Source: Meloidogyne chitwoodi
Lineage: Eukaryota > Nematoda > Chromadorea > Rhabditida > Meloidogynidae
DNA: 64,000 bases
Assembly: GCA_015183035.1 (NCBI GenBank)
Contig: JACZZP010000010.1
Span: 248,001-312,000 of the forward strand
Direction of reading: 5' to 3'
In this document: one piece after another, positions 1 to 58,194 of the stretch
Position numbering within the stretch: the first letter of the stretch is position 1
How the letters are laid out: each line of letters starts with the position of its first letter
Translations under genes and position numbers: made by a program
The notes under the pieces: model-generated
The model's input: the letters and a program-made list of their open reading frames with translations, nothing else
Database searches by the model: none
Told to the model about the DNA's origin: nothing

Positions 1-3000
1 TTATTGGTAGAAGCAGAAGAAGGACGTTTAAAAATCATATCAACACTTTAAAAAAAAATAAATTTTAATTTTAAACAAATTATTAGACAAAATTAAACAT
101 TTTTCACATATTTATTTGTTTTTTTAATTAAAAGTAATTTAATTATTTAGGGTAATAAATGCTTTAAAAATTGATTTAAAAAAATTGAATTATTAAAAGA
201 AAAAAATTCTGTTAAAAAAAAAATATTTAAAAAGGATAAATTGTCTCTTTCACAATTAAAAATGGAAACTTTTTAAAAATTCTATGCTTTGAATTTAGGT
301 TAAATTTATTTATTGTTCTGGGTCAAATTAAGAATCAGGATCTCACAAAGGACTCAAATATTACAAAAAAATAATACATATTGGGCCAGAGCCTTTAAAT
401 AAACAAAAATTTGGCAACAAAGGTCTACTCGTCAACCAATAAAAAAAGTTTCAAAAACAAAAAATAAAAAATAAAATAAACCTAGTATTGGTCGAAGAAT
501 CACAAATATTATTAACATCTTTTGCACCACCATAACGTTGTAAAACAACATTATTATTATTATTTAATAAATTTGTGTTATTTAACCCTTGAGGAAGTAC
601 AAAATTATTATTATTATTAATTTGCTGTGAAACATTAGAAAGAGGACTAAAAGAATTATTTTGTTCTTGAATCTAAAAAAAATAGAAGGAATTTAATTCA
701 AAAAATTAAAAAAAAAACCGTAGAATTAGTTGAAGAAATTTTTCTTTTATTTGAACGGGAAGGAACAACAACAGAATGTGGAGATTTATTATTATTCATT
801 CTTATTGGAATTTGTTGTTGTTGCAGTTGATACATTTGAGAAGAATAAAATGCTGAAAAAAAATTAATTTAAATTTTTTTTAATTATGGCACTGAACTGT
901 CCATCTTTTTTTTTAATTTTCCTATTAAACTTCCCCTTAACTTTTTTATTTTATTTTTCCTATTTAAAATAAAGGGGGAATAACATTTTTAATTTTTACC
1001 CTATTCCACATTCTCTGTACTTACAGAGAATGTTGGGGTTAAAAATAAATTTAAAAGAAATAAAAAATCAAAAAACCTCTCAAACGGATATCCAAAAAAA
1101 ATAATTTTTTCACTCAGAATAAGTTCAAAATTTTATACTAAAAACCTTTAGAAGTTGAAGGATTCGTCATGTGCCATTCAGACAAATTTTGCGCGTGCCA
1201 ATGTGGAAGATCCATAAATTGACGACGTTGGACATCAATAACAGCCTTGTTTGCCATATCAGTTGTAAAAAGAAGAGAAAGTCTGCCAAAAGGAAGCGGG
1301 GGCATTCCTCCATTATTTTTATTATTTGGTGGTTGTATCATTTGAAAAGGAGGGGGCTAAAAAATTGAAAAATTTTTAAAAATTTGAAATAGGATTCCGC
1401 GAGACTAATCCCGCAATTCCAAAGAAGTGCGGGAGCAGTAGACCCCAAAACCCCGCGCTGAATCCCTTCAATTATTTTTTGGACCAAATGTCACTTTACC
1501 CTTTTAATATTTTAAAATTAAAAAAACCTCCATTTCACCGCAATTATTTCCTCTAATCTGTTGTGGACAAATTCCATTAGATGGTGGTAATGGCATTCTC
1601 AACATTTGTTGTGGAGGCATTCCTTGCCAAAGTGAAGGATTATTTTGTTGAGGTATCATCATTTGAGGATTTTGTTGTTGACCAATTAAAGGTGAAGGAA
1701 TGGATTGTTGAACACCTTCAAAAATTTAATTTTAAAAATGTTAAAGTGTATTTTAATTAATTTTGATTTTCTCGAAACTTTAGGCTCCGGATTTTGCAAA
1801 AATAAAATTTAGCTTCAAGTTTGTTTTAAATTGAAGATAAAGGAATATTCGACAACTACACAATTTCGAAAATTTGGAGTTTCCGATAATTTTTGGGTCG
1901 GAAATTCCTTTTCGAAAATCAGCGGGAATTACATTTTTTAGTTGGCAAGATATCCCTTTTTCATACTCTAAAGAATAGATTGTAAAAAAAATTTTTTTAT
2001 AGTTTGTATGAAATTTGGTGTGTGGGGATCGTCTCCTTTTCTTCAAAATATTCTCAAGTTTTAAATAAAAAATAAACCGTTATTATTATTATTAATTTGT
2101 ATAGATTGTCTAAACATTGGAGAATTACAATTTCCACCACCATTCATAAAATTTGCAGGAATATTATTAACAACATCTCCATTATTATTATTAGATTGTT
2201 GAGGATCAAACATCATTCCGTTCTGCTGCATTTGTTGAAAACATAGCTGCTGCTGTTGTTGAAAATTTTGCTTAAAAATTTTGAAAATTAGAAAAAAATT
2301 AGAAAAAAATTTAAAAAAAATTTGCTTCTTCAAGAAAAGAAGAAAAATATTAAAAAACAAAATTTCCAAACGTGGACATTTCATCACAAAATTTTTGTTC
2401 CAATATTTTCTCAAAAAAAAAAAATTAATTTTGTTTTCCCAAGTTTTCCAAAAATTTTTAAAGTGTTTAAAAAAACCTGAATATTTCCTTGTCCTGAAGC
2501 AGCCAAAAGATCAGCAGTAGAAGTAACTGAAGGTGAACTTATTTGTTGTTGAATTTTTTGTTGAATTTGTTCAAACTGTCCGGGAGAAGAAAAATTACTT
2601 TCTGGACGTTGAAATTCTTGATTAAAAATAATATTATTATTATTTGGTCCTCCAATTCCTCCGTTTTTTCTTTGAGAATCTTGAAATTGTTTTACCATTT
2701 GTTGTTGTTGCTGTTGTGAAATATTAAAATAAGGAGAGGGGGGTATTATTGGTGAACGACCTTCGGTGTTAAATTGGGGAAATTGTTGTTGTTGTCCAAT
2801 AATATCTTTTTTTTTAATTTTAAAAATTATTTTGATATACTAAATTGGATAAAATTGGAGAAAAATCGACATTTGAAAATTTTTAAAATTGGACATTTGA
2901 TCCCAATTTTCTTGTTAAATTGACAATAAATTGATGCTATAAACCAGAGAACGGTAAAATTGCCTTCCCGGGATCACAATTCGGGATTTTTTTGAAAAAA

Positions 3001-3401
3001 AGAAGAGATTTGGTCCAGACCCTGTTCTCTCCCGTTCCATGGACATTCTAATGATTTTTAACTAGTTTTTCTTATCATTTAGACAAGCCGGGATCTTTTT
3101 AAAGTAATTCTTCCTCTTAAATGATAGTTTACCTTTTGAACAATTTAATCAAATTTTACCCGGGAAATTTCCGAATTTTCAAAATTTAAAATTAAAAAAT
3201 ACCAAAATTAGCATTTTGTGAAGTTGTAGGAGTATCAAAAAGTTGTTGATTTCTTTGGATATTAGCACCACCACTATTATTATTAGGTGTCATTTGAGTG
3301 TTCCAAAACGGAGAATTATTTATCAATTGTCTTTCATAAGAAGGTGGTGGAGGTAAAGAAGAAATGCAGTCACCATTTAATGAACCAACATATTCATTCA
3401 T
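1..3401 (-). CDS. Q/N-rich protein with BCL9/Legless HD1-like motif (3' end beyond window)
   Basis: Exons 3401-3203, 2805-2477, 2270-2078, 1715-1528, 1356-1146, 852-719, 672-482 and 45-1 join in a consistent frame; the last runs off the window. Most of the protein is low-complexity Gln/Asn/Pro (CAA and AAT runs). The exon at 1356-1146 holds one conserved-looking stretch, LLFTTDMANKAVIDV followed by HWHAQN. It resembles homology domain 1 of BCL9/Legless (FSTEMANKA...HIQN), which binds the PHD finger of Pygopus in Wnt/beta-catenin transcription. The match is from memory, not a search. The start is the ATG at 3401. A possible extra upstream exon near 3457-3500 ends in a splice-like CAG but does not join in frame, so the first exon may lack something. 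The beta-catenin-binding HD2, if present, would lie outside the window. Confidence 0.6.
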
Positions 3402-5475
3402 TTTATTTTTTTGAAGAAACTTTTTTATACAAAAATTGCAAAATATTTAAAAAAACCTGAAAGAGAACTATATTTAGTCAAATCAAAACCCAAAAGATCA
3501 AAATTTTGATTTATCAAAATTAAAAAGTTTCAATGTTTCCTTTTTATTCGATCTTATGGGTAAATAAATAAATGAAACTCATTAAACCCAAAAAGTAAAG
3601 AAAATAAAATCAATAAATCTTTTCAAATTTGTCAACGTAATAAAATTCGATATATTAAAGTCAAAGAAAAACACTTTTCAAATAAAGTGGTACAAGTATT
3701 ATTAGATTTTTTGGCGCAAACACGATTTGGGCGTTTAAAGTTGCAAGTTGTTTTTTGAATAAAACAAACAAAACAAAAAGATGTTTTTAGGCGCCATTTT
3801 TTATTCAACGCCTAAATAACATGTAAATACAAATTTTTCTTTATAAAAAATGATAAAAAAATTGATAAAAATTAAAATGTTAAAATTTTAATTTTTAATA
3901 GACAAAAAAATATTTTGACTGGCCAAAGCTTTAAATATATATAAATATATTTATATATATTCTTTTAAATAATAAAGACGAGTTGGCATCATTATATACA
4001 CAAGTGAAAAAAAGAAGAAAAGAAGGAGAAAACTGCTTTTTTCATAGAGGAGTCGCATATAAAAAGGAAAGAGAAAGGACGTTGTTCCTCGCTCAACCGG
4101 GTGAGCGACGAGCATAGCGCTATAAGAAAATTTTGGTGGTTAGTGCACTTATTGCCTGCAGGGGAGGAGAAAACTCCTTTAACCATTGTTAGGTCGTTTG
4201 GGCGCGAAAATGTTTTTGGCGTGTGTTTATAGTTGATTTTTTTGTTCGCGCCGAAAGTTTGCGCCTAAACGTCTCCCACTCGCTTCCAGCGCTTCTCTAT
4301 TACTATCAATACATTTAACTATTAATAAAGAGAAAGAAAGAAAAATAAATGAATAGAGTAGCACATTAAAAAAAATTGGGGAAAAAGAGAATTGAGATGT
4401 GAAAAGTTATATTATATTTGAATAAAAAAAGACTAGAAAGAGATGGAAAAAGTAAATATTTAGTAATATTATTTAGGAAGAGAAATTCTGCTAGAAGAAG
4501 AGGAGGGAACTGATTCTGCACCTAATATTGGGCATTAAAGGGCTGAAACATGAAATAGGTCATAAACCTAAACATCAACAAGTGGTATATTTTTGGCACC
4601 CCGACTTTTGCGCCGCGATTTTTAGGCGCGACATTTTCGGCGCCATTTTCTTTAAAAAAATAAAATAATGAAAATTGGTCCCCTTATGGTTTTTCAAATT
4701 TAAGGACATATATCCCGAGGTATTTCCGCACTATAAGAATGGTACCATTCGACTCATTCCGTCGAGATACCAACCCTAATCTTTAAATTAGAGAATGACG
4801 CCAAAAATGTCGCGCCTAAAAATCACGACGAAATATTTGCGGTGCAAGTTTTTGAACCAAATTTTTGATCTGGAAATTTAAAAAAAAACTAGACTACAAG
4901 GTGGGAGATATTCTGTCTTGCTATTTATTCAGACTCTAAGTAGTCGGTAATGTTTCAATATGAGACTCAAGAGTGCTAAATTTCTAATACTCCAGATAGG
5001 CTCTAATGGTTTGAACTAGGCTATTAACGATTTCAGACTCTAACAGGTCTTTTTTGTAACAGACTCTAATGACTTGCATCGCTTTAATGTCTCGTATGAT
5101 CTGATAGAGCAGACTCTAATGGCTTATATAAAGACTCTAATTGGTCGATTTTTATGAGTATACAAGAGAGAGTGAATAATTCTCCAATGCTGTTGTGCTC
5201 ATTTTCAATTGTTGAGTAACTTTCTCTGTCTTCTAATATGTCTAATATTTGAGTAAACAGTTAAAGTAACTATAACCCATTTGGTCACCACTAACAAACA
5301 TTGTCTACTAGTTTCTCTTTTGTTGTAGTTTAGTTATTTTGGATATATATTTTTGTCTTTTTGAAGGTCAACCCAAAAGATCGATGACTCTAAAATAGTT
5401 TTTTTGTGTGTACAGAACTGTAAAATTTAAATTGCTTTTTCAAATATTTATTTATTTAAAAAATTAAAATATTTT
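3402..5475. other. intergenic, repeat-rich
   Basis: No convincing coding exon. It contains GGCGC-rich inverted repeats (about 3710-4275 and 4595-4850), the TA-rich stretch at 3936-3961, and a cluster of the motif AGACTCTAAT or close variants between about 4925 and 5145. Short ORFs here look random. Confidence 0.6.
4595..4850. mobile_element. foldback element with GGCGC-rich terminal inverted repeats
   Basis: The left arm (4595-4650) and the reverse complement of the right arm (about 4797-4850) share the core GATTTTTAGGCGCGACATTT over some 45-50 bp. The middle has no coding potential. The arms resemble the CTTTTGCGCCG units of the element at 63215-63974, suggesting related non-autonomous DNA transposons. 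Ends and target duplication were not resolved. Confidence 0.55.
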
Positions 5476-6031
5476 TCAAGGTTTCTCCAATTGACCACCC
5501 TTCTTTTGTACATTAGCATCACCTAAATAAAATAAAAAATAAAAAAAATTTAAAAAAATTAATTACATGCAACAAATTTGACTCTATCAATAGTCCCTTC
5601 TATTGGCCTTTGAGCATCACGAAATTCAACATTTTCCATCATAAAAGTCCATACATTGTCGCAAAAACGATAAGCACGGAGTTTCTCAGCCTTTAAAGAA
5701 AATTTATTTTTCTAAATAAATTTTTTAGAAAAATAATTTAACACAGAAAATTCTGAAAATTTGACCGAAGAATTTAAACAATTTAAAAATAAATAAAAAT
5801 TAAATTTCCTAACCTTAAAATTAACTTTATTTCTAGCTCTTTCAGACAATGCCTTATTTATGCATTTATCAAAAGTTGTCATTACAGTGCCCGCCAATTG
5901 TTGAGAAATTAAACCTTCAGCAATGAGATCGTCTAATGAAGCTTTAAAAAATAAAATTTAAAAAAATAAAATTTAAATATACTCTGTAATGCAACCCCAA
6001 TAGTCGTTGAACGATACATTTGATAAGTCAT
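5476..6031 (-). CDS. transcription initiation factor IIA gamma (small) subunit
   Basis: Four exons (6031-5983, 5941-5814, 5690-5567, 5522-5476) encode 115 aa, normal for TFIIA gamma. Recognisable blocks in order are MTYQMYRSTTIGVALQ at the start, SLDDLIAEG, a QLAGTVMTTFDKCINKAL helix, ARNKVNFK, YRFCDNVWTFMM and VEFRD. The subunit pairs with TFIIA alpha/beta and stabilises TBP on the TATA box in RNA polymerase II initiation. All introns are GT-AG and about 40-125 nt long. The gene lies 138 nt downstream of the AAMP-like gene on the same strand, close enough for the two to share an operon-type transcript (inference). Confidence 0.93.
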
Positions 6032-6169
6032 TTTTATTTAAAAAAATATTAAAAATTTTTTTTGCTGTAAAAAAATTTTTTAAAAATAAAAAAATAATAA
6101 AATATAAAATGATTAAAAATCATTGAAAAATTAAAAAAAATTTAACGAAAAAAATTTAATATAATTTGT

Positions 6170-9100
6170 TTAATTTTCAAAAATGTTAATTAAGCCTCCT
6201 TCACATCCTGTCAACAAGCCTTCAACACCTTCAGTATTCAAAAATGTTGTAGCAGAGAAAACTTGGTCGCCACCACCTTCCATTTTCTAAAAAACAACAA
6301 ATTAAATTCTTTATTAAATAAAAAAAATAATAATTTAATTATAATTAATAATAGAAAAAGGAAAGGAGAGATTCGAGGAATAAATTCGAACAATTCGAGG
6401 TGAATATAAATAAAATTAATATAGGCAAAATAAATATACTCTAAATATACTCTTATAAAAGAAGAGTTTATAAAAAGAGATACATTTAAAGGAAAAAAAA
6501 TTCGTACAATTTTCCCAGGGATTCAAAAATTTATCCCTCTCGAATCGTCTTTTTTATAAAATTTATAGAAAATAAAAATTTAGAATAAAAATATTAAAGA
6601 AATATAATTTTGGTATTCTAGCAAAAATAAGAAAGGTAAAAGCAACGATTCCAAAATTTCTTAAAATTTTTAAAAGTAAAAATATAAATTAAATAATAAA
6701 AGAAGATGACATATGAATTTTCAGAAAAAAATTCGGATAATTCTGGGGATAAAATTAAAAAAACAAACAAAAAAACCTTTATTAATTGTCCATTCAAAGC
6801 ATTCCAAATTCGAATTGTTCCATCAACACAAATAGAAATTAAAGAAATATTATTATTTGTTGTGTTGGCATCACTCAAATTATTAATTTTCCAAATACAA
6901 TCAACTACTGCCGTTTCATCTAAAATTAATGTTTAAAATATTTTATTTACACAGCCCTCAACACTTTTTACCTTCATTTAAAAATTCATAACGTATAGCT
7001 GGATGTTCCCAATTAAATATTGTCAAAATACCATTTGCTTTACCTACAGCTAACCAAGGAAGATTGCTGCTTGGACCAAAACGGATGCATTCAACACTTT
7101 TATTTTCTTCTTCTTCATCTTGATTAATTTCAGAAAATGTTTCTTTATTTGTTGAAGTAAAAACGTGGATTAACTTAAGTTTTTGATCAGATAAATTAAT
7201 GCTGACTAAAGCAGTAAGGCCATTTGAACAGCCTAAAGAAGGGAAAATGAGATTTTTGGAAATTCAATTTTTTTTGAAATTATTGAGACAGAAATATTCC
7301 CTTAAATCCCGTCCTTAAAACAAAAAAAAATATACCAATAGCTGCTATATTTCCAGGCAAATATAAATCCATTGTACCAGTACAAGTTCCAGGAAGATTA
7401 ATTTCACTTGTACAAATTGCATTTTTCAAATTCCAAATTTTCACTACAGCATTTTCATAAACGGATAAAAAATGTTTTGCTCCATCAAGAAATTGTCCTG
7501 CCACACAGGGAGAATTTGAAGAGTTTGGAAAGACCCAAAAATTGATAAAATCAATTTTTAATAGTTTAAAAAAACCTTGAATTGTTGAAGAGAAATGGAA
7601 GAAATATTATTGTCAGAAACAGTTACAAGCCACATCCATAAAGAACCGTCTCCTGAACCACCAAAAAGAATTCCATTGGCAGAAGGATGCCATAAAAGCC
7701 ATCTAATTTGTTCAAAACATTCTTCCTTTTCTTCTTCAAGTATTTGCTTTTCACAAGTTTGACAATCTTCAATCTGATTGTGAGACAATTAAATTGTTAT
7801 AAAATAAAAATGAATCGAATCGGTAATTATTAATTCAGTATCCCTTTCTCATCAATTAATATACAAAATGGTCAAAGGACAAAATGGTCATACAGTGTAT
7901 TTTTTACACAAGTATACCCAACCAGTTGTTCAATGTTTAAATCATTTCAATTTAATCCTTTTTTATGATCTGACCATTATGTCTCGCTGACCATTTGTAG
8001 GTTAATGTCCCTTGACTATTTATATGCGAAGGAGTAAAGATGAGTTAATAAAAATAAAACGAACTATTAAAGTAACCGGCTCACAATCAGCTTCGCTCGA
8101 ATCTCTAACAAGAGTACATACTATTCTTCCTGACATATCTCCACTGGCTTTTAACAAAAATGTTTAAACTTTAAAAAAATTAAATTTATTAAAATAAAAC
8201 CGAGTAAATCACTGCTACAATTCCAAGCTAAACAATGAACAGAATCAACATGTTTGCCAGCAAGACGGAAATGCTGACGTATAGCTTAATTGAAAAAATA
8301 AAAGTACTTTTATAAGTGGAAAGCTTTGAAATGATTTGCGGATTTTTTAAGAAAAATAAAATTTTGAAAAACTAAAAATTTAGAATATAAAGAAAAGGAA
8401 TATAGTAAAATAGCTAGAGTCTAAATCTAACATTATAAAAGAAGAGAGTATAAAAGTTCAGGATGATTCGAGGGAAAAAAATTATGAAAAACTAAAAATA
8501 TAGAATATAAAGAAAATGAATATAGGCAAAATACCGAAAAAAGACAATCTGGAATTAATAAAAAAAGAAAAAGAGATTTCAATAAGAACTATTCGGAAAA
8601 TTGGATAATTAACAAATATTACAAGAAAAATTATTTGTATAAATAAAGATAAAAAAGTAGAAAATTAAAAAAAAAAGAAAATAATTAAATGTGTGGAAAG
8701 CCTCTCTTCAATTATCTGATGCCCATTTTGATGTCAATAAATCAAATCTTTTTTTATTTGAATCCATAATTCCGAATGCATTGAATTATTCCTCTTCGAG
8801 ATTTTTATTCAATTTTAAATAAAGTTATATGTGTATTAAAAAAGAGAAGAAAAAATAAATACATCAAATAAAATATATATTTAAAAAAAGAAATAATTAG
8901 ATGAGTTCTGATTAGGTTAAAAATAATCTTTTTAATGAGAGTCATTAATCATAAATAAGATAATTCAAAATAAAACTAGATAAATACTAAAACCAAAAAA
9001 ATACTCTAATAAAAGCAATAAATTGGAGATTATTAAATATTAGAGACCAAATACATAAAAGGCAGAATAATTAAAACCTGACACTGAAGTTTATAAAAAC

Positions 9101-53696: not shown

Positions 53697-56516
53697 ATGT
53701 TTAAAAGATATTCTAAAAGATTAAGGGAAAAAAATAATAACAACAAAATTAGTGATGATAATTCGGTTATTTATGTGTCGGCTAAAGAAGAAATTTCTGA
53801 TGAAAATGACAATGTAACACTGTCATCTGAACATAATCGCAAAGGTTTTAAATTGTACTTTAAATATTTTTGGACCTTTTTTTGTATTTTTGGTGTTACT
53901 TGATGTCCTAAAATCGCTTAATTTTCAATTTAAAATTTCAGAACTTTTGAATGATTTTGAACAAAGTAATATGGGAAAGAACACTTATCGTTGTCTTTAT
54001 TGCAATTTACATTTTATGTTTCGACGTGTTGAGCGACATTTGGAGTCAAAGAGACACGCAGTTTTGAAAAAGGCTCATGAAGGTTTTTAATTTTTATTAG
54101 ATTTTTAAAATATTTTTTGCAATTTTTAAGTATAAAGTTGGGAATTTTGTTTATTTTTCTGATTTTTTCAAGTCTTTTTTTAAATTTTATTCTAGATGCT
54201 TCCAAAAATCCAAAGCTTGACAGCACTTCTCCATACACAATTAACTGCCCTAATGATGGTTGTTATACTTCAAGTGTCCTAGGTAAAAAATACGTCTATT
54301 GCATTGATTGCAAACAAAACTTGATAAACCTAAAAAGAGTTTTATGGCCACATATTTTATCATTATCACATCAAAATGCTAAAGAAGGAGGTTTTTTTAT
54401 TTAAATTTTTAAAATTAAATATTTAAGCCAAAAAGGACAACACTTTATTGAAGAGTTCAAATAGGCATCGTCACTCAAGCAACGATTTAAATAAAAGCTT
54501 AAAAATCGGACTAGTCAAAGTTGTAGATGAGATCTCATCTTCATCGTCTTCTGATGAATGCGAGGATGAGGACATTTGTAAGTATATTTTTTTTAGTGAG
54601 AAATAAAACTAATCGCACCCAGCAGGCATCGAACCTGCTGCTTTATTGGGGAAATATTCTTTTTAACCAACTTAACTATGCAACATGTCATTGTTTTTTC
54701 CTAATTCCTCTATTTCCCCACATTACTATTTTTATAGAAAATTAATTTTTAGCCTCGTCAACAACAAATAATATTAAAAACGACGGTACTTGTCAAGATG
54801 GTATGGTTTTTTTTGCGGACTTTTTTTTAGGACAAATTATTATCATATTTTATTCACACATATGTTATTTGATTTTTACCTCAAGGCAAGTAAGGGTCTA
54901 CATAGACTAATAAATATGTGTAAATGTTTCTGACCTAGTCATTTACATTTTTTAATCAATTATTCTATAAAATGATTCAATCTCTTAAAAATTTTACTTT
55001 ATTACAATTATGCAACAAAATCAGTTTACCAGAGGATGAATTTCAACAATGGCTTACTGATTTAGGTATGCTTCACAAAACAAGAACATGTGTTTGTGGT
55101 TCAGAAATGCGTAAAGAGAAGATGAGGGGATATGGGCTTTGGCGCTGTAAAAAAACATCATGTAGAAAAACAAAAGGGGCTTTGGTTGGCACTTTCTTCA
55201 ATGGTTTTAAGCTAACTTTCAAGCAAGTGATGCAGGTAAATTTTGCCGATTATGTACTTTATACCATGTGGGAAATTTCCTTCTAAGATAATGTATTTTT
55301 GGTCGAGAAGACCAGTTATACATATTAATCAAAAAGAATTTTGCATGAATTTATTTGGAAACGACATTTTGGAGGAGATGATTGTTTTTTTAATTTGATT
55401 TCACAAATTGTAAATAATGAAAAATATATGTGTGAATAAAATATAATAATAATTTGTCCGCAAAAAAAGTCCGCAAAAAAAACCATACCATCTTGACAAG
55501 TGCCAAAACGACTCTTTTACTCGTTATCTTGAACTCAAAAAAACCTTCAAGGATTTGTGTTATTGTATTTATTGTAAACAACATTTTAGACTTGTGGTTC
55601 GTAATAAACACTTAAATCTACAAAAACATGCTTTAAATAAAAAAATTTTTAAAGGTTTTTTTAAATTGTTTTTATTTTTTCTTTTGTTTTTAGAAAGCAA
55701 AAAGAATAAAAAATCTTCTCCTATTATTGATGATTCATCTCTTAGCTTACAATTAACCGATGAAAGCTTCAAGAAAAGCGAAAAAGGAGAAAATTTTGTT
55801 TTTTGTATTTATTGTAAAAGTCATCTTTCTACGAAGCGTAAAAGCAATCTTATTGATCATAAAAAAACTGCAAAACATATCGTTGCGTTGAGATCTGTTA
55901 AACAAGGTTTTTTAATTAATTTTTTCTTGTAAAAAATTAATTTTTATTTAGTCTTGATTTTTAAAAATTTTCTATTTTTGGGGAAGTCTGAAACGTGTTT
56001 TTTAACTATAAACTTTAGATAAACAAGAAAAAATATTTATTAAATAATTTACCAAAATTTGTTTTCTTGCTTATAAAAGTGGATATTTATTTTTTAAAAT
56101 AATAAACTGGGCCTTTTGCTGATGTAAGAGGTCGTCCATCTACAGGGTTTTTTCGTTATAAAAGTTTTATTATAAACAATTTTCCTATTAAAGAAACTTA
56201 AAATAACCAAAAATAGATTTAAAAAATTTAAGATGAATTAAACCAAAAAGATGAAGCTAAAAATGATGAAAGTGTTACCAACGAAAATGAACCAAACGAC
56301 AACAATAATATTGATGAAATGGATCAAGTTTTATCTGATAGTTCTTCCGGAATAATTGGGAGAGAGGATGAAAGTGATTCTTCTAGTAGTAGCACATCAC
56401 TTGATGAACTAGAAAGTGTCTCGTCAAAACTTGCTGCTTATATTACTCGTAAAAGACGACGACGGAAACGAATGAACACTTATGTGGTTAAGTCAGTCAA
56501 ACAAGAATTGTTTTGA
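53697..56516 (+). CDS. protein with four CxxC...HxxxxxH zinc-finger-like modules, interrupted by a transposon
   Basis: Exons are 53697-53844, 53942-54082, 54196-54390, 54428-54577, 54753-54805, 55501-55654, 55694-55906 and 56233-56516. With the transposon treated as an intron they read in frame to 445 aa; with the element and one target duplication removed, the exon is also open and 11 codons shorter. Modules: YRCLYCNLHF...HLESKRH, YCIDCKQNL...HILSLSH, YCIYCKQHF...HLNLQKH and FCIYCKSHL...HKKTAKH. Each is encoded by its own exon or exons with phase-1 junctions, suggesting exon duplication. Spacing (two Cys two apart, His five apart) resembles U1C/BED-like or matrin-type fingers; no named family was recognised. 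The C-terminus is acidic then strongly basic (RKRRRRKRM). Confidence 0.75.
54611..54692 (-). tRNA. tRNA-like sequence (degenerate, intronic)
   Basis: The minus strand has A-box-like TAGTTAAGTTGGTTAAAA and a perfect T-arm GCAGGTTCGATGCCTGC. Acceptor pairing is poor. It is antisense in intron 4 of the zinc-finger-like gene. Confidence 0.4.
54972..55286 (+). pseudogene. transposase N-terminal fragment (Merlin/ISXO2-like zinc ribbon)
   Basis: 104-codon frame: a leading region with WLTDLGMLHK, then a zinc-ribbon-like TCVCGSEM...LWRCKKTSCRKTKGA, then GTFFNGFKLTFKQVMQ. Merlin and ISXO2-like transposases have this order (CxxC, WRC, then a GTFF-like segment). It stops before any DDE catalytic core. 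Confidence 0.65.
55329..55439 (+). pseudogene. transposase C-terminal fragment
   Basis: A short frame reading KRILHEFIWKRHFGGDD then FFNLISQIV and a stop resembles the ESYLxEFxWR end of Merlin/IS1016 transposases. With the N-terminal fragment it shows the element is an internally deleted copy, the catalytic middle being missing. Confidence 0.5.
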
Positions 56517-56985: not shown

Positions 56986-58194
56986 ATGAGTTGTTGTTCT
57001 TCATTTTTCAGACGCAATTTGTTGTCTTTTTCTAATAATTATTTTGGCAAATGCTTTTTGAGTACTTCTGGTTGTAAACATTCAGTTTTTGATCCTAATG
57101 AATGGTGTGATCCAATTGTCAGTATTGAACAGGTTTTTTTTAATTTTAATGATTTTATATGAGAGGTTATCTTATTTGTTGTTTTACCTCTTTAAATTTG
57201 TTGTTTTCTCTGTTTTAAAGATTTCTCTTTTTTTGTTTCAGTTGGTCAATTTAATCTTTCAAAACATTATTTTTAATGTTAAATTTAGCTTAACAAACCT
57301 TTACCTGATGATGATCCAAGACGTTATTTACATCCAAAACAAATGCATTCCAACAAAACGCCTGTGTTTTATAGGTTTTTAATTTTATTATTTTCGACAA
57401 TTTTTTTAAATTGAAACCTTTTACACGATTCCAACAAATTAATTTAAATTAAAAAATTTATTTTTTAGAAATGAGATTGTAGACAGAATGGCCAATATTT
57501 TTATGTTAGAAGGCAAAAAAGAATTAATTCGTGGAGAAATTTATGGAGCATTGGAAATTATTAAGCGAATTCAATACAAGTTTTAAATTATTTTTTTTTT
57601 AATTAATTTAAATTTTTAGAAAATGGCTCGATGAAAAGGACGAAAATAAACGGGCAAAAATAGTTCTTGATCCTCTCGAAGTGACTAATTTGGCTATTTT
57701 GAATTGTAGGCCAATAATGGAACTTAGGCCTGTTGGTCGAAGTAATTTTTAAAAATTAAATTTATTTTTTTATTTTAATTTTTTTAATAAAAAAGCTGGG
57801 ACAATCTATCAAGTGCCTTATCCAATTTCTGAGCATTACTCCATCTTCCGAGCGCTCAAAATGATGAGGACTATTTTGAGGGAGAAATGTAAACATGCTC
57901 AAAATCGAACTAGGGTTTGTTTCTTTTTTTGCTTTTATAATTATTTAATTGATTTTTAATGATTTTGGGCAAGTACTTGAGTCGTTGATTACCTTAAATT
58001 TACTAATTTAAGACCCGGTGTTTTTATTCCAAACAAAAACATTTTTAGCAATATTTCCTCCGTTTTTTTAGACTTTTCTGGCTCATGAACTTATTAATGC
58101 AATGAACAATGAAGGTTTTACTATTCAGGCAAAACAAGAATTACATAGACTTTGTGAAAAGAATAGGGCATATTCAAGTTTTAGGAGATATTGA
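56986..58194 (+). CDS. mrps-7: mitochondrial ribosomal protein S7 (uS7m)
   Basis: Six exons (56986-57132, 57289-57374, 57469-57579, 57620-57741, 57796-57914, 58072-58194) give 235 aa. A Ser/Arg/Phe-rich N-terminus (MSCCSSFFRRNLLSF) looks like a mitochondrial targeting peptide. The uS7 core follows: NEIVDRMANIFMLEGKKELI, then NCRPIMELRPVGRTGTIYQVP, then FLAHELINAMNNEG, the classic small-subunit S7 signature that binds the 3' domain of 12S rRNA. The ATG sits directly after a TTTAG acceptor, suggesting trans-splicing just before the start. The Vti1 gene follows 206 bp downstream on the same strand. Confidence 0.9.

Follow-up and report, generated by a model that had tools for sequence, protein, structure and literature searches.

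Whether a DNA transposon lodged in a coding exon has become a newborn intron or an interruption of its host gene is the question raised by a zinc-finger-like gene of Meloidogyne chitwoodi, located in the 64,000-nucleotide stretch analyzed here (hereafter, the window). To our knowledge, transposon-born introns are rarely caught at the moment of insertion. An earlier note on this DNA had proposed such a case, in which a Merlin-like element carries splice sites at both ends, in phase with the exon that it splits. Our analysis indicated that the element looks like an ordinary gene-disrupting insertion rather than a demonstrated newborn intron. The explanation that we consider probable is a young non-autonomous Merlin insertion in the finger-3 exon of a conserved gene, either damaging the allele or causing the loss of finger 3 by splicing. 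The host gene and the element comprise the following features:

53697 to 53844, + strand: exon 1 (manual model; gene finder agrees on boundaries)
53942 to 54082, + strand: exon 2, finger 1 (manual model and gene finder)
54196 to 54390, + strand: exon 3, finger 2 (manual model and gene finder)
54428 to 54577, + strand: exon 4, Ser/acid-rich linker (manual model and gene finder)
54753 to 54784, + strand: interrupted exon 5, left part, terminating in the first target-site duplication (TSD) copy (manual model)
54777 to 54784, no strand: TSD copy 1, AAAACGAC, end of the left part of exon 5
54785 to 55504, + strand: non-autonomous Merlin-type transposon, 720 bp (8 copies with such ends)
54785 to 54879, + strand: left terminal inverted repeat
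54972 to 55235, + strand: N-terminal transposase fragment, Cys-rich (no Pfam match)
55410 to 55504, - strand: right terminal inverted repeat
55505 to 55512, no strand: TSD copy 2, AAAACGAC
55513 to 55654, + strand: interrupted exon, right part, finger 3 (manual model, protein alignment and gene finder)
55694 to 55906, + strand: exon with finger 4 (manual model, protein alignment and gene finder)
56233 to 56516, + strand: last exon and stop codon (manual model)

Once the element and one TSD are removed, the eight coding pieces, from 53697 to 56516, form a single open frame of 434 amino acids reading ...NNIKND/SFTRYLELKK... across the site, in agreement with the continuous frame that had been claimed. 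On the empty site, the gene finder returned identical boundaries for the first six of seven exons and an identical start of the last, an agreement that is not independent, the training having been seeded with the host gene and its six introns. It closed the last exon 30 nt earlier than the manual model, fusing the gene to a downstream gene. The neighbor immediately downstream (56986-57900) resembles, by eye, a gene for mitochondrial small-subunit ribosomal protein S7. Pfam gave three sub-threshold matches on the host protein, the best of them a zinc finger (E 0.062). A search of the genome for a paralogue yielded, besides the gene itself, three weak matches on one contig (C26), and proteins of other species were therefore taken as the empty-site control. 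Six relatives were found at E <= 0.001, all from Meloidogyne (M. hapla, 2; M. enterolobii, 2; M. incognita, 1; M. floridensis, 1), with E values of 5.2e-89 or better and 45-56% identity in local alignments. All six, from four species, align past the insertion site without an insertion, indicating that the insertion is derived and the host gene conserved. The site falls in a variable linker just ahead of the block F-x-RYLELKKTFKDLCYCIYCK, which is invariant in the seven alignment rows. Separately, the minus strand of host intron 4 (54610-54690) contains a stretch with A-box- and B-box-like words that, by eye, is presumably tRNA-like; ARAGORN and Rfam made no call there, and a genome search found no second copy.

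The element itself matched its earlier description, as a 720-bp insertion with a perfect 8-bp TSD (zero mismatches) in an exon of the zinc-finger gene, with inverted arms of 95 nt (89% complementary), slightly over the approximately 80 bp claimed. Its N-terminal transposase fragment is followed by an intron-like stretch (55236-55287) and then by C-terminal remnants, and the catalytic core is missing. Pfam assigned no family, including DDE_Tnp_IS1595, to the 124-aa joined reading; with no transposase domain found and the core missing, the element was filed as a non-autonomous relative of Merlin. Lacking a catalytic core, it would depend on a transposase encoded elsewhere. By eye, the N-terminus (54972-55235) shows a CxCG...WRC....C pattern resembling a zinc ribbon, although Pfam finds nothing there; described Merlin elements are said, in PMC8101967, to be without the IS1595 zinc domain. 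The same paper gives terminal inverted repeats of 24-462 bp starting with GG and 8- or 9-bp TSDs as Merlin features. The window element resembles Merlin (IS1016/IS1595-related) in its 8-bp TSDs, GG-starting repeats and repeat length within the published range, whereas the domain PF12762 is present in related copies of the same genome but not in the window copy, which lost its catalytic core. Because of the GG termini, the 8-bp TSDs and the IS1595-type transposase domains of its relatives (PF12762), the element can be placed in the Merlin superfamily, as a non-autonomous member, and the Merlin-like assignment of the earlier note was borne out.

Further copies, which the earlier note had suggested seeking, were searched for in the genome (47,477,280 bases, 30 contigs). 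A 22-base stretch of the repeat gave 16 matches, all exact although two mismatches were permitted, which form 8 pairs. The eight copies sharing these ends, hereafter subfamily A (the window copy, L009-L014 and L015), sit at differing target duplications. Six full-length copies are 0-8 substitutions and 0-2 indel columns apart, with no difference between the window copy and L009; identity over 720 bp to another copy shows that the window copy is very young. L015 is broken up by a 5.8-kb insertion; this foreign DNA (approximately 5.8 kb; 2444-8229, contig C8) has short open frames repeating a QMDVTLGPSALGS-like motif and is perhaps a nested repeat element. A 5S rRNA gene (L013, 5668-5786) was observed approximately 1.9 kb from another subfamily-A copy. 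Relatives at approximately 85% (L016-L024), and others below, have the same layout, their number being a lower bound with 40 of 125 genome-search candidates scored. A perfect 8-bp TSD was present in 22 of 38 rows surveyed, a count from which the perfect 8-mer of L031, a palindrome inside the repeat, was excluded and for which L015 was skipped; L038 has a perfect 9-mer, and the other 14 rows had 7-mers, imperfect matches or unclear ends. GG occurs at both ends in all 24 copies examined for termini. Among four pieces of relatives scanned for PF12762 (DDE_Tnp_IS1595), L032 (40 bits) and L023 (28 bits) passed the cut-off of 27 and the other two gave no match; the genome as a whole has 16 matches, 14 of them over the cut-off. 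In the diverged L032 (3001-4249), much of the transposase survives, although its frames are broken; among the surviving words are IEIDET, TDEWRSY and IESLW, which we take to resemble a DDE triad.

The intron proposal depends on splice sites in the two repeats. The relevant candidates are as follows:

54801 to 54802, + strand: donor GATG/GTATGG, strong, 63rd percentile of predicted introns, phase 1
54806 to 54807, + strand: donor TATG/GTTTTTTTT, strong, 74th percentile, phase 0 (donor of the earlier note)
55499 to 55500, + strand: proposed acceptor AG, scoring -2.31 (0.5th percentile among predicted acceptors)
55692 to 55693, + strand: host acceptor belonging to the following intron, pairs best with donor 54801

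The training set of the gene finder was the window plus 38 genomic loci (296,472 bases, defined elements removed), and the donor and acceptor matrices came from 592 introns predicted on empty-site loci, so that the scores are the model's own predictions and share their bias. Among these introns, GTTTTT donors are frequent (83/592), acceptors are T-rich and short introns dominate (median, 58 nt). The six introns of the host gene have donor scores of 3.2-7.8 and acceptor scores of 5.5-6.4. The donors at 54801 and 54806 score 5.81 and 6.33, both within the top 2% of all GTs, and a donor of at least 6.33 occurs in the first 30 nt of only 1.5% of 4,000 random 720-mers. The element is thus predicted to supply a competent 5′ splice site, and the donor claimed for the left repeat, whose T-run form is shared by most host-gene introns, held up in this model. 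The proposed acceptor fared otherwise. Just 3 of the 592 predicted acceptors are at or below the score of 55500, it lies at the 35th percentile of all AGs, and an AG with at least its score occurs in the last 30 nt of 61% of random segments. Its sequence (CTTGACAAG) has G at -6 (11/592) and C at -4 (35/592); CAAG endings were found in 15 of the 592 predicted acceptors and ACAAG in one. In a stricter set of 172 introns, donors 54801 and 54806 rank 107 and 98 from the bottom, and acceptor 55500 ranks 4. The model therefore predicts no competent 3′ splice site within the element that would keep the exon, contrary to the usable acceptor claimed for the right repeat.

The arithmetic of the proposed join was correct: joining 54805 to 55501 removes 695 nt and keeps the frame, adding 11 codons (GTCQDGMCQND). 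Segments were screened for GT/AG pairs compatible in phase with the insertion, the GT lying within 40 nt of the segment's start and the AG within 40 nt of its end. With 24 copies (all but L015) taken in both orientations, 29 of the 48 cases offered at least one such pair, as did 43% of 4,000 random 720-mers. Since random segments often have such pairs, the in-phase fit is no evidence for an intron. The summed score of the pair 54806-55500 (4.02) was matched or beaten by 12% of random segments, so the two sites taken together stand out only slightly. With a poor acceptor and a chance-level phase, the introner-like intron birth read from two splice-competent, in-phase ends was for the most part not upheld.

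Among outcomes with one intron removed, ten stay in frame and meet no stop codon. The highest score belongs to 54801-55693 (11.70), which would give 392 aa with finger 3 lost, followed by 54786-55693 (7.78) and 54806-55551 (7.68; SFTRYLELKKTFK lost). The originally proposed 54806-55500 comes fourth (4.02; 445 aa) and is the best of the four that retain the whole downstream exon, the next scoring -0.79. Plain retention would yield 222 native residues and 41 element residues before a stop, with fingers 3 and 4 lost. When the element was left in place, the best parse of the gene finder was ...54800 / 55033-55235 / 55552..., in frame and with a transposase exon included. Two further routes were discarded: a direct join of exon 4 to the exon that starts at 55694 creates a TAA at the junction, and donor 54578 contributes none of the ten open outcomes.

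For the family as a whole, introner-like behavior was not supported. Of the 25 copies with defined ends, the gene finder called 2 exonic, 13 intronic and 10 intergenic (among the 38 loci retrieved, 14 had unclear ends and were left unclassed), against 34% exonic for random positions. Matching for TSD A+T content (24 copies, L015 left out) gave 6.31 exonic copies expected (P = 0.023 for two or fewer; P = 0.005 for one or fewer). Such rarity of exonic copies is the usual mark of purging, and the window copy perhaps survives in an exon because it is new. It is the only convincingly exonic copy among the 25, and the only one of eight in subfamily A, since the second exonic candidate, L014, lacked related-protein support: the 45-nt exon that the gene finder placed in an ING-like gene is absent from related proteins. 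Three aligned relatives of that gene (of 49 hits) start at or beside DLYEKC, which is encoded from a start codon approximately 0.58 kb beyond the element. The L014 element (3001-3604), approximately 0.58 kb upstream of this start codon, stands directly ahead of an acceptor-like word, CTCTTTTTAG. The L012 site appeared coding by eye, yet it is intergenic per the gene finder, and Rfam found no RNA gene at the locus. The longest open frame over the empty site was also tried as a test of exon context; in a genome so rich in A+T it did not discriminate (the random median being 67 aa), and the gene finder took its place. The 25 classed copies did not form a family of introns similar in sequence and spread over many genic positions.

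These data are best accommodated by a gene-disrupting insertion. A small Merlin element, mobilized by a transposase encoded elsewhere, would have entered the finger-3 exon with an 8-bp TSD, and the allele would most likely be damaged through read-through to the premature stop. Because the left repeat has strong donors, some transcript may be spliced from 54801 to the host's own acceptor at 55693, in frame and with finger 3 deleted. The perfect TSD and repeats, the eight copies with the same ends, the few substitutions (0-8) between six full-length copies, the six uninterrupted related proteins and the PF12762-bearing relatives all support this explanation, as do the strong donors alongside a poor 55500 in both intron sets, the lead of 54801-55693 among in-frame outcomes (11.70 vs 4.02) and the below-expectation number of exonic copies. 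Several observations weigh on the other side. The remainder of the gene is intact, which splicing-out of the element could account for as well; because the copies have hardly diverged, however, decay had little time to act, and this objection is weak. Eleven extra codons in a variable linker ahead of a conserved block might be tolerated, the splice model was self-trained (approximately 296 kb) and seeded with the host gene's own introns, and the best parse with the element in place was inclusion of the transposase exon, neither retention nor 54801-55693.

Strong terminal donors are a trait of subfamily A. Scores of at least 5.8 occur at both ends in 7 of 7 scored copies, in contrast to a best donor of -0.37 in subfamily B (L016-L024, 9 copies); among eight other copies, donors score 4.88 in L028 (one end), 2.93 in L025, 1.86 in L034, L038 and L040, and -2.08 in L035, L036 and L039. 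This invites a reading, which we regard as rather unlikely, that a Merlin subfamily gained a strong donor in both repeats, making any exonic insertion, in either orientation, a half-made intron; the window copy would then show intron birth at its very outset, with either its own weak end or the host's next acceptor serving as the 3′ partner. Eight subfamily-A copies are too few to show selection for donors.

Removal of 54806-55500 by the spliceosome, with 11 linker residues gained by the protein, is not favored, and we judge it quite unlikely. The strong 54806 donor, the stop-free frame, the lead of this pair among outcomes keeping the whole downstream exon and the occurrence of CAAG acceptor endings are consistent with it, but the acceptor is nearly as low as any predicted, better ones lie further downstream, and the phase agreement is at chance level. 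The splicing of Tc1 is reportedly the subject of a 1996 paper, which appears in reference lists. For a Tc1 element in exon 7 of dpy-19, PMC12405876 describes likely removal by way of a cryptic site, accompanied by a 49-bp deletion that shifts the frame, indicating that exonic transposons can be spliced out in nematodes. The C. elegans case is comparable in that a DNA transposon of a nematode sits in an exon and candidate splice sites lie within or close to it, but Tc1 belongs to another superfamily, and its removal from pre-mRNA is reported in PMC12405876, whereas removal of the window element would be a prediction. Introners of Aureococcus bring a donor and an acceptor of their own, are flanked by an 8-bp TSD and lengthen the transcript by 12 nt (PMC9860276). 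The window element likewise has an 8-bp TSD, two internal candidate sites and added codons; however, its acceptor is poor, no sequence-similar intron family was found, and its splicing is a prediction of a sequence model.

Very unlikely, in our estimate, is the related proposal that the subfamily's repeats bring a donor in either orientation and borrow the acceptor of the host, as reported for some introners. The contrast in donor strength between subfamilies A and B agrees with it, as do Chrysochromulina introners, which bring a 5′ site and co-opt a 3′ site (PMC9860276), but the acceptor borrowed here would delete a conserved zinc finger, and one of eight subfamily copies is convincingly exonic. 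Least probable is exonization, in which the N-terminal transposase exon (approximately 55033-55235) joins the host mRNA to yield a chimeric protein: it matches the gene finder's best parse, and host-transposase fusion is mentioned as a route of gene birth in PMC8101967, but the fragment's coding potential probably accounts for the parse, both of its acceptors are weak (55032, 3.5th percentile; 55551, 3.7th percentile), and the element is apparently too young for selection to have retained a chimera.

Our literature search, with subscription journals mostly outside its coverage, found no introner report for the Merlin superfamily, no report of this case and nothing on exon insertions in Meloidogyne, and a search directed at the splicing-out of Tc1 likewise listed no paper; the main text of a large introner survey (PMC9860276) contains neither "nematod" nor "Merlin". 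If the element is spliced, it would represent a datable nematode case from a superfamily for which no introner report was found. As the evidence stands, the chief lesson of the locus is that chance alone readily produces GT/AG pairs that are in phase. It also offers a conserved Meloidogyne gene that may have been disrupted naturally.
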